Assembly (NCBI GenBank): GCA_013298075.1
Contig: JAAFJG010000011.1
Coordinates: 1 to 64,000, forward strand
Length of the DNA: 64,000 bases
Direction of reading: 5' to 3'
Source of the DNA: Cytophagales bacterium
Lineage (GTDB): Bacteria > Bacteroidota > Bacteroidia > Cytophagales > Microscillaceae
A program made the translations under genes and the position numbers. This document shows positions 1,052 to 3,951 of the stretch, one piece after another (the stretch's first letter is position 1; the number at the start of each line of letters is the position of its first letter). The notes beneath the pieces are model-generated. The model searched no databases and was not told the origin of the DNA. It saw nothing but the letters and a program-made list of their open reading frames with translations.

Positions 1052-2779
1052 TTACTTTTTAGAGAATGTATCTTTATTAAAAATAATCGTAATAAAATTA
1101 AATAAATAAGATAAAACAATTACAAAAAACGTTCCGACTACATTTAACCACAAATAAGCAATATCTACCGCAGGAAAAACATCAAAATCAATCGCAATAA
1201 TTAAAATTTCTGTGATAATAGTTGCCAAAAAAACAGCATTACTTTTTAGATTTTTACTAAAAAATGCCAATAAAAATACCCCTAAAATTGTCCCATAAAA
1301 CCAAGAACCCAACATATTGACTACCTCGACCAATGTGCCTAAATGCAAAGATAATTGAGCAATAAATATCGCCAAAGCACCCCATAAAATTGTCATAATT
1401 TTGGACACTAAAATATAATGTTTGTCCGAACCATTATCAAAAAACAAACGTTTATACATATCGACCATACCCGTAGAAGTCAAGGCATTAAGTTCGGAAG
1501 CAGTGGTGGACATAGAAGCAAACAAAATCACTGCAATCAAAAGCCCTACCATTCCCACAGGGATATGATTGGTAACAAAAGTCAGAAAAATATAGTTTGC
1601 GTCGTTTATATTGGCATCTTTATCATTTTTTTTGATGATTTTTCCTGCTTCTTTTTTAGTTTCTTGAAATATTTTTTCTTTCTCTAAAAATTCTTTTTCG
1701 GCTTTTTCGATATGAGTTTGATTATTTTCTTGGAAAGATTTTACTAAACTTTGGCTTGCTTTTTTTCTTTCTACAAATGCTTTATCATATTTATTTTCTA
1801 CTTGTGCAAATTCTACACCATAATCACTTTTTGATATTTTTTGTAATTCTACTTTATCAAAAAAAATGGGCGGTTGTTCGTGTTGATAAAAAACAAATAA
1901 TAACACGCCAATCAATAAAATTCCAAATTGCATCGGTAATTTAAACATACCATTAAACAAAAGTCCCATGCGTGATTGCGTGATAGTGCTTCCACCCAAA
2001 TATCTCCCGACTTGTGATTGGTCTGTGCCAAAATACGCCATTTGCAAGAAAAAACCACCTATTAAACCCGACCAAATTGTATATTTATTATGCCAATCAA
2101 AACTCCAATCTATCGTGTTCAATTTTCCACTCGTACCCGCCACACGCAAAGCATCAACAAAACCTATTTCTTTGGGCAATAAATGAACAACCAAATAACC
2201 TGCCGCCACCATACCCGCCAAAATAATTATCATTTGTAATTTTTGGGTTTGGCTAATGGCATCTGAGCCACCCAAAACCGTATATAAAACAACTAAACTT
2301 CCTACAATAATATTGGTATAGTAAAAATTCCAGCCTAACATCACAGAAAGAACAATAGAAGGAGCAGCCAAACTAATGCCGGCCGCTAAACTACGTTGAA
2401 TTAAAAAGAAAAATGCGATTAAAACTCTTACTTTGGCATCAAATTTTGTTTCTAAAAATTGATAAGCTGTTACAATATTTAATCGATAATAAACAGGTAA
2501 AATAAATACACAAATAAAAACCATCGCCAAAGGCATACCCAAATAAAACAATACAAACCTCATTCCATCAGTATAACCTTGCCCCGGCACAGATAAAAAT
2601 GTAACCGCACTTGCTTGCGTAGAAATCACAGAAAGTGAAATGGTAAACCAAGAAAGCGTATGCCCTGAACGCAAATAAGTGCCAATATCTTGTTCTTCTT
2701 CTTGTTTATTTTTCCAAAGTCCATAAATAATGATGAATAATGTAGTGCCGCAAAGTACAAGCCAATCTAAAAGTTGCAT
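1052..2779 (-). CDS. Sodium:solute symporter (SSS family)
   Basis: A 575-residue, multi-spanning membrane protein of the SSS (SLC5-like) family, expected to import a solute with Na+. Family hallmarks include the early segment around residues 50-75 (SVISTQASAVTF, then PGQGYTDG) and a GGSDAISQTQ loop near residue 170. Between two membrane spans, residues about 301-395 form a charged, Lys/Glu-rich, coiled-coil-like insertion with no obvious transport role; such insertions occur in Bacteroidota members of the family. The substrate cannot be told from sequence. A 41-residue membrane protein gene (2853-2978) ends 73 bases upstream on the same strand and carries the nearest promoter, so the two are probably co-transcribed. 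Confidence 0.9.
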   Translation of the reverse strand: MQLLDWLVLCGTTLFIIIYGLWKNKQEEEQDIGTYLRSGHTLSWFTISLSVISTQASAVTFLSVPGQGYTDGMRFVLFYLGMPLAMVFICVFILPVYYRLNIVTAYQFLETKFDAKVRVLIAFFFLIQRSLAAGISLAAPSIVLSVMLGWNFYYTNIIVGSLVVLYTVLGGSDAISQTQKLQMIIILAGMVAAGYLVVHLLPKEIGFVDALRVAGTSGKLNTIDWSFDWHNKYTIWSGLIGGFFLQMAYFGTDQSQVGRYLGGSTITQSRMGLLFNGMFKLPMQFGILLIGVLLFVFYQHEQPPIFFDKVELQKISKSDYGVEFAQVENKYDKAFVERKKASQSLVKSFQENNQTHIEKAEKEFLEKEKIFQETKKEAGKIIKKNDKDANINDANYIFLTFVTNHIPVGMVGLLIAVILFASMSTTASELNALTSTGMVDMYKRLFFDNGSDKHYILVSKIMTILWGALAIFIAQLSLHLGTLVEVVNMLGSWFYGTILGVFLLAFFSKNLKSNAVFLATIITEILIIAIDFDVFPAVDIAYLWLNVVGTFFVIVLSYLFNFITIIFNKDTFSKK

Positions 2780-2852
2780 GTGATATGAAGTGTGTGTAAA
2801 AGTATGAAATTAAGCGTTTATATTTATGAAAATATGGTTGCTTATTTCAGAC

Positions 2853-2978
2853 TTATTTATTAAAAGTATATGAAAACCAGATTAAAAAACCAATAAAAAT
2901 AAATAAATATACATAAGTAAAACCGTATAAAAACGCAAGATTGGGCGTTTTTTCGTTATTTTCAATTTCTTTTTTCAT
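2853..2978 (-). CDS. 41-residue single-span membrane protein, likely symporter partner
   Basis: This small reading frame starts with a charged stretch (MKKEIENNEKTP) followed by about 23 hydrophobic and aromatic residues ending in TFNK, which is one transmembrane helix with a cytoplasmic N-terminus. A TATTTTTG -7 box lies at 2999-3006, about 20 bases before the ATG, and the symporter gene follows 73 bases downstream. Small one- or two-span accessory subunits encoded beside SSS transporters are known (for example YhdT beside PanF). No homology can be claimed by eye; the case rests on the promoter, the composition and the position. Confidence 0.6.
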   Translation of the reverse strand: MKKEIENNEKTPNLAFLYGFTYVYLFIFIGFLIWFSYTFNK

Positions 2979-2998: not shown

Positions 2999-3006
2999 CA
3001 AAAATA
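2999..3006 (-). promoter_or_regulatory. -7 box for the small membrane protein / symporter unit
   Basis: TATTTTTG on the minus strand fits TAnnTTTG and lies about 20 bases before the start at 2978. No exact TTTG -33 element is found at the usual distance. Confidence 0.45.
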
Positions 3007-3087: not shown

Positions 3088-3951
3088 CTATACTTTTTCT
3101 AAAACCGTTTCAATCATATTTTTTACGATTTGAGTTGGATTTTCTGCAAATTGTCCTGTATATCGATTGGCTAAAAGTGCGTTAATAGAAATAATTTGAT
3201 GTCCAAATAAACGCGCAAAAGCATAATATCCCGCCGTTTCCATTTCTAAATTGGTGAGTTTAAAACCTTCATAATCAAATGAATAATATTTTTGTTTTAA
3301 ATTGTCAAATGAATTTTTAAGGCGCAATTCTCTGCCTTGTGGTGCATAAAAACCAGGGCAAGTCAACGTATTTCCTATGATAAAATTTGTTTTTTGTTGC
3401 CATTCTTCAAACCATTTCTCGTGTGCTTGTGTGCAGGAAGGCGTAAATCCGAATGAAAAATAATCGGTTAATTGTTGAGAAATTTCTTTTTCTTTTTTGG
3501 TTTGATTTTGTTGATAAAAATACATCAAATTATCCAAACCAATCGCAAATTCGGTTATCAAAATATTTCCAACTTCAATTTCTGGTCTTAAACTTCCCGA
3601 TGTTCCCAATCGAATCATTTGCAAAGAAGTAAGATTTGGTTTGATAATTCGAGTATCAAGGTCAATATTAACCAAAGCATCTAATTCTGTCAAAACAATT
3701 TCTACATTGTCTGTTCCGATGCCCGAAGAAATCACAGAAAGCCTTTTTTTGCCTATATAACCTGTATGCGTAACAAATTCTCGGTGCTGAATTTGGTATT
3801 CAATGCTATCAAAATAAGCAGAAACATCTTTTACTCTATCAGGATCACCCACCAAAAGAATTGTGTTTGCGATATGTTCAGGGCGTAAATGCAAGTGATA
3901 AACACTTTTATCAGGATTTAAAATAAGTTCAGTATTTGCTAATGGAGTCAT
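3088..3951 (-). CDS. Nucleoside phosphorylase (uridine phosphorylase-like)
   Basis: This protein belongs to the PNP/UDP phosphorylase superfamily, which cleaves nucleosides with phosphate to free base and ribose-1-phosphate. Visible motifs are LLVGDPDRV (phosphate-binding glycine loop), an SSGIGTDN segment, IRLGTSGSL, and the C-terminal NLEMETAGYYAFARL ribose-binding motif with its Met-Glu pair. An in-frame upstream start at 4038 would add 29 Lys/Asn-rich residues without family similarity, so the start at 3951 (287 residues) is preferred. Many Bacteroidota members are annotated as uridine phosphorylase or generic nucleoside phosphorylase; specificity is not resolved here. Confidence 0.85.
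   Translation of the reverse strand: MTPLANTELILNPDKSVYHLHLRPEHIANTILLVGDPDRVKDVSAYFDSIEYQIQHREFVTHTGYIGKKRLSVISSGIGTDNVEIVLTELDALVNIDLDTRIIKPNLTSLQMIRLGTSGSLRPEIEVGNILITEFAIGLDNLMYFYQQNQTKKEKEISQQLTDYFSFGFTPSCTQAHEKWFEEWQQKTNFIIGNTLTCPGFYAPQGRELRLKNSFDNLKQKYYSFDYEGFKLTNLEMETAGYYAFARLFGHQIISINALLANRYTGQFAENPTQIVKNMIETVLEKV

Follow-up and report, generated by a model that had tools for sequence, protein, structure and literature searches.

A short gene at positions 2853–2978 on the minus strand of the window (the whole stretch of 64,000 nucleotides that was analyzed) probably encodes a real single-pass membrane protein of 41 residues that serves as an accessory subunit of the adjacent symporter of the SSS family. 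SSS symporters (SLC5 in humans) are mostly regarded as single-chain machines. The precedent of SGLT2 and MAP17 indicates that a single helix can be an essential partner of such a symporter, and if many bacteria pair one subfamily of symporters with partners of 40 residues, these would offer a simple system for probing what the helix does. The case is built on conservation, gene order, co-occurrence, a purifying pattern of substitutions and the predicted SSS fold of the partner, from which we infer physical binding between the two proteins. A small subunit had already been proposed in the initial annotation; conservation and co-occurrence with the symporter support that proposal, and its status as a physically bound subunit is the conditional part.

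The Short Gene in the Window and in Its Genus

The gene, whose product is MKKEIENNEKTPNLAFLYGFTYVYLFIFIGFLIWFSYTFNK, is defined by the list of open reading frames, by its conservation in the genus and by the family alignments described below. It is separated by a gap of 73 nt (2780–2852, minus strand) from the ATG of the symporter gene on the same strand, so that position, length, strand and spacing are exactly those first annotated. The -7 box with which the frame had been credited is also present: a TAnnTTTG element, TATTTTTG, lies at 3006–2999 on the minus strand, 20 nt before the ATG. Such boxes occur in the window about 0.15 times per 100 nt and strand, and no clear -33 element was seen by eye upstream of the frame. 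The charged start and the single hydrophobic helix are likewise found, with a Kyte–Doolittle maximum over 19 residues of 2.08 after a charged N-terminus. Taken alone, the frame is unremarkable. The window has 30% GC and contains 96 ATG-started frames of 35–60 residues, 31 of them with a 19-residue hydropathy maximum of at least 1.6 and 15 with one of at least 2.0; chance frames of this type are not rare, and it is conservation that distinguishes this one. The plasmid records searched gave no match to an annotated copy of the small protein.

The frame is kept at the same place and free of indels in all three species of the genus (that of the window, G001 and G002), which also share the -7 box, as well as much of the sequence that precedes the ATG. 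The pairwise dN/dS values are 0.38, 0.23 and 0.16 (range 0.16–0.38), each of them a rough ratio because the sequences are short, and the differences at codon positions 1/2/3 amount to 5/3/7, 8/1/12 and 5/3/15 for the three species pairs. The spacing to the symporter is not conserved: the 73 nt of the window compare with 84 nt in one sister species and 21 nt in the other. The gene further upstream is different in each species: a nucleoside phosphorylase (3088–3951) in the window, a protein with a T9SS-type (Por secretion) sorting tail in G001, and in G002 a protein that, as we read its sequence, looks HisG-like. The phosphorylase had suggested a nucleoside as the substrate of the symporter; nucleoside transport was set aside because G001 and G002 carry other genes at that position.

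A Family of One-Helix Proteins Upstream of the Symporter

Reading the sequence upstream of the symporter at a first set of 30 loci with orthologues revealed an adjoining one-helix ORF in 24 of them, at most about 390 nt away (L007), with the pattern PPFxxTWxxxYxxVxxxLxxLIxLFYxFTxxF. The other six (L006, L008, L009, L016, L017 and L022) lack one beside the symporter. Alignment A1 was formed by 21 of the 30 loci, window included, with ORF starts picked by eye; L020 and L025, which are near-copies of L019 and L023, and the distant case L007 were omitted.

A second set was gathered by similarity to the symporter only (alignment A2). Its 80 named loci are the best 80 of 584 confirmed relatives, for which reason close relatives are favored, and at least L110 and L111 belong to A1 as well. 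They come mostly from Bacteroidota, with a few bins of Calditrichia, Ignavibacteria, Acidobacteria, Aminicenantes, Myxococcales and others. The small-ORF profile matched at E ≤ 0.01 in 79 of the 80 loci, always on the strand of the symporter; in 78 the ORF lies directly upstream, no farther than 190 nt, in L154 it is 3.7 kb away, and L176 gave no match. The initial annotation had made the gene depend on the recurrence of the short frame before orthologous symporters, and a related one-helix ORF is indeed found there in 78 of 80 loci, besides the purifying pattern within the genus. As a control, 20 distant SSS paralogues were scanned in the same way; none has an upstream match at E ≤ 0.05, the best value being 0.088.

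The copies share more than their position. A tyrosine before the helix is present in 79 of 80 aligned copies (the 79 matches plus the window), with a histidine in L160. A tryptophan, likewise before the helix, occurs in 78 of 80, the exceptions being the window and its sister species L110. Alignment A3 has 52 members, namely the window and 51 of the 79 matches, whereas the residue counts just given used all 79 and the window. In the 52 proteins the part that precedes the helix has on average 3.4 Lys/Arg and 2.7 Asp/Glu residues, and the part that follows it 0.2 Lys/Arg; by the positive-inside rule, the excess of Lys/Arg suggests an N-in/C-out topology. No Pfam family was found for the 52 proteins, only scattered matches with a best value of 0.0011 (DUF2976, five members) among 25 of 28 families listed, and no NCBIfam family either, the best of the scattered matches being 0.0012 among 18 families at E ≤ 1. 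Related one-helix ORFs also immediately precede the genes of a second subfamily of SSS symporters, which are 35–38% identical (L210, L211 and L212; G005:C260 and G014:C34).

Membership of the Window Gene in the Family

The match of the window ORF to the profile based on A1 is circular, and not evidence of homology, since the window is part of A1. Using profiles from which the genus was excluded, with the default bias correction, the window ORF was not found among the six-frame segments of the window, apparently because of the correction for composition bias: with it, 338 of 2000 window shuffles score as high as the window ORF, while 229 and 76 of the same shuffles reach the scores of G001 and G002. 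Without the correction, 0 and 7 of 3000 shuffles match the window ORF with two genus-excluded profiles, the second of which (78 rows) was gathered with A1, which contains the genus, and is thus not wholly independent. The corresponding numbers of shuffles as good are 1 and 40 for G001, and 0 and 2 for G002. These 3000 shuffles preserved the regions, with the N-terminal part and the helix shuffled separately.

The weakness of the match once the genus is excluded, along with the loss of the tryptophan, could mean that this genus carries an unrelated or decaying short frame where the small gene used to be. We consider this very unlikely, given that the three species show a purifying pattern, no indels and a common -7 box, that the score exceeds those of nearly all shuffles when no bias correction is applied, and that the position and hydrophobic layout of the family are retained. 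Its position and layout, together with a modest signal in the sequence, lead us to regard the window ORF as a diverged member of the family.

Co-occurrence with the Symporter in Whole Genomes

A match to the small-ORF profile at E ≤ 1e-3 was obtained in at least 57 of 296 genomes of the phylum, that of the window included; this is a lower bound because at most 24 candidates were scored per genome. Of the 30 best-scoring loci fetched in this search, 27 had not been used for A1, and all 27 have the symporter directly downstream. Among the 57 small-ORF loci fetched, 53 have a symporter within the 1.5-kb flank. The small gene stands apart from the symporter in G013, G017, G036 and G051 (L081, L082, L084 and L087), where symporters are encoded elsewhere in the genome, and there are weaker candidates of this kind in G004 and G009.

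Counting by genome, the small gene (E ≤ 0.01) is present in 37 of 41 symporter-positive genomes (E ≤ 1e-130) versus 1 of 15 symporter-negative ones (G035). The Fisher p of 7e-9 refers to 56 scorable genomes of 57 relatives, own genome included, treated as independent and uncorrected for phylogeny, and the profile behind it included members from 21 of the counted genomes. G019 was left out of the count, as it has a symporter fragment only. The four misses were viewed directly: in G021 and G039 a weak ORF runs up to the start of the symporter, in G054 there is a weaker one, and in G015, where the symporter is present, inspection gave no small ORF.

These data also bear on the idea that the ORF is a cis-acting upstream frame or leader that serves, by being translated, to open or couple symporter translation while the peptide itself is idle. 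In 59 of the 79 copies the small ORF overlaps the symporter start by 4 nt (57 times as ATGA), which is the usual sign of coupling. Nevertheless, we regard an idle leader as quite unlikely. Its peptide would not call for residues as conserved as the tyrosine and the tryptophan, the window genes are 73 nt apart with a gap that varies within the genus, and the unlinking of the small gene from the symporter in six relatives argues against an element that acts purely in cis. The symporter is the constant partner, the helix region is conserved and the gene survives unlinked; therefore, these facts are in our opinion best explained by an accessory subunit that acts in trans.

The Partner Symporter

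The symporter gene (1052–2779, minus strand) encodes 575 residues and had been assigned to the SSS family from the outset, an assignment that domain models and predicted fold confirm. The protein scores above the curated cut-offs of both PF00474 (107.7 bits, cut-off 22.8, E 8.5e-31) and TIGR00813 (203.4 bits, cut-off 184, E 6.3e-60). Its AlphaFold model (pLDDT 84.9) has a LeuT-type fold with the SSS arrangement and matches SiaT 5nva with Z 43.6 and an rmsd of 2.3 over 463 aligned residues. Further fold matches are SMCT1 (Z 41.5), NIS (Z 41.3) and the SGLT2 chain of SGLT2–MAP17 complexes (Z 37.2 at best), and the leading matches in sequence searches are SMVT, NIS, SMCT1 and SiaT. The partner is thus an SSS protein by domain models and fold, with a putative sodium coupling. 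A helical hairpin insert of about 75 residues, near residues 309–385, is confidently predicted between two core helices, and the same insert is present in the model of the distant relative L130.

In a linked AlphaFold model of the small protein and the symporter the helix was formed with a pLDDT near 55, with no confident docking. None of the 50 rows listed for the linked model overlays the small helix, and the 50 entries listed for the symporter model include no experimental structure of a bacterial SSS protein together with a small partner. An alignment that combined rows of the small protein only with rows of the symporter only was dropped, as the small rows were apparently misplaced and the sole invariant column fell inside the symporter.

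Proposed Role and Known Systems

We envisage that the small protein would be made together with the symporter from one transcript and that, in most relatives, the two would be translationally coupled at the 4-nt overlap. Its helix would probably insert into the membrane N-in/C-out and pack against the symporter from outside. There it could help the symporter to fold, to stay stable or to keep a fixed scaffold, as is thought for MAP17 and SGLT2.

Two-subunit SSS symporters of the VC_2705 type are those with a TIGR03648 large subunit and a TIGR03647/DUF4212 small subunit. Their small subunit is a short membrane protein with two helices, encoded beside the SSS symporter gene. The adjoining arrangement is similar to that in the window, but the window symporter reaches 44.8 bits against TIGR03648, far from the cut-off of 320.75. 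For the 52 small proteins, the model for the small subunit of this type appears neither among the 18 NCBIfam families at E ≤ 1 nor in the Pfam listing, which gave 25 of 28 families.

The closer parallel is MAP17 (PDZK1IP1), an auxiliary subunit of human SGLT2 (SLC5A2) with one transmembrane helix. MAP17 is reported to belong to a fixed scaffold that helps to stabilize SGLT2, to dock on TM13 and to have extra- and intracellular regions in addition (PMC10803289). In both cases a small one-helix protein is paired with a transporter of SSS/SLC5 fold, and the symporter model matches the fold of SGLT2. The proteins of the window family are little more than a helix, unlike MAP17 with its additional regions. 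The PDB matches of the A3 profile at E ≤ 10 include no MAP17 chain, in a comparison limited by the shortness of the sequences. Moreover, the symporter model aligns only to about residue 550 of SGLT2 and ends with that helix. TM13 of SGLT2 presumably lies beyond residue 550, and the symporter would then lack TM13, so that the small protein would dock in a manner different from MAP17. The resemblance would be one of function, homology not being implied.

Binding of membrane transporters by proteins of less than 50 residues is already known from AcrZ and MgtS, whose targets are an RND pump, a P-type ATPase and a phosphate transporter (PMC10710835). The likeness lies in a membrane protein of under 50 residues that partners a transporter, and the difference in the kind of transporter targeted. 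No family of the AcrZ/MgtS type is found among the NCBIfam matches or the listed Pfam matches of the 52 small proteins. With small transporter partners already on record (PMC10710835), the novelty would be the small-protein family, its tie to a symporter subfamily and the module with a PIG-L deacetylase. A search of open-license PMC papers found no description of a PIG-L/small protein/symporter module or of small SSS partners.

PIG-L Neighbor and Genomic Context

In 62 of the 80 named loci, the genes that precede the symporter on its strand include one for a homologue of an 840-residue PIG-L protein of G017 (PF02585, 7.6e-15), and some of the other 18 have little upstream sequence. In 54 of the 62 the PIG-L gene ends within 400 nt of the symporter start. 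Among ORFs of at least 110 residues at the 80 loci, no other same-strand neighbor is as constant. This frequency suggests a three-gene module. The G017 protein has, by eye, a signal-peptide-like start, and the deacetylase is probably secreted. In the genome of the window, a PIG-L homologue (44%) is located on another contig (G000:C113:8076-10541).

It could be argued that PIG-L is the main partner of the small protein, which would anchor or recruit the deacetylase at the membrane beside the symporter. Apart from the 62 of 80 loci, three genomes of one genus speak for this, with the small gene behind PIG-L (the domain being shown for one of them) and the symporter elsewhere. We find it unlikely, however, when the loci are centered on the small gene, for a PIG-L-type protein lies within the 1.5-kb flank in 31 of 57 of them versus 53 of 57 for the symporter. 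The separate contig in the window genome also counts against it, as does the second symporter subfamily, where the 2.0–2.4 kb fetched upstream at three loci gave no PIG-L match.

In most relatives, the PIG-L deacetylase of the module would presumably make a solute in the periplasm, which the symporter would then import. Going further, we put forward tentatively, and as less than an even chance, a three-part uptake system present in several phyla, in which a compound in the periplasm would be trimmed by a secreted PIG-L and the product imported by an SSS symporter with a hairpin insert, to which a one-helix subunit would be joined as an obligatory part. Such a system would be a bacterial counterpart of SGLT2–MAP17 with a docking site of its own. 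The finding points to a likely uptake module of PIG-L, small protein and symporter, and also to a family of proteins to which neither Pfam nor NCBIfam was found to assign a model.

Other features of the loci may be mentioned. In L016, L017 and L022, from one genus, the symporter follows a gene resembling a SusD/RagB lipoprotein, as read from the translation, and the small gene is behind PIG-L elsewhere. On the far side of the symporter, 35 of the 80 loci L110–L189 have a gene that is nearly always on the opposite strand. In the window, a short plus-strand ORF of 128 residues is found at 541–927, with a product that we take to resemble a TraR/DksA-type protein.
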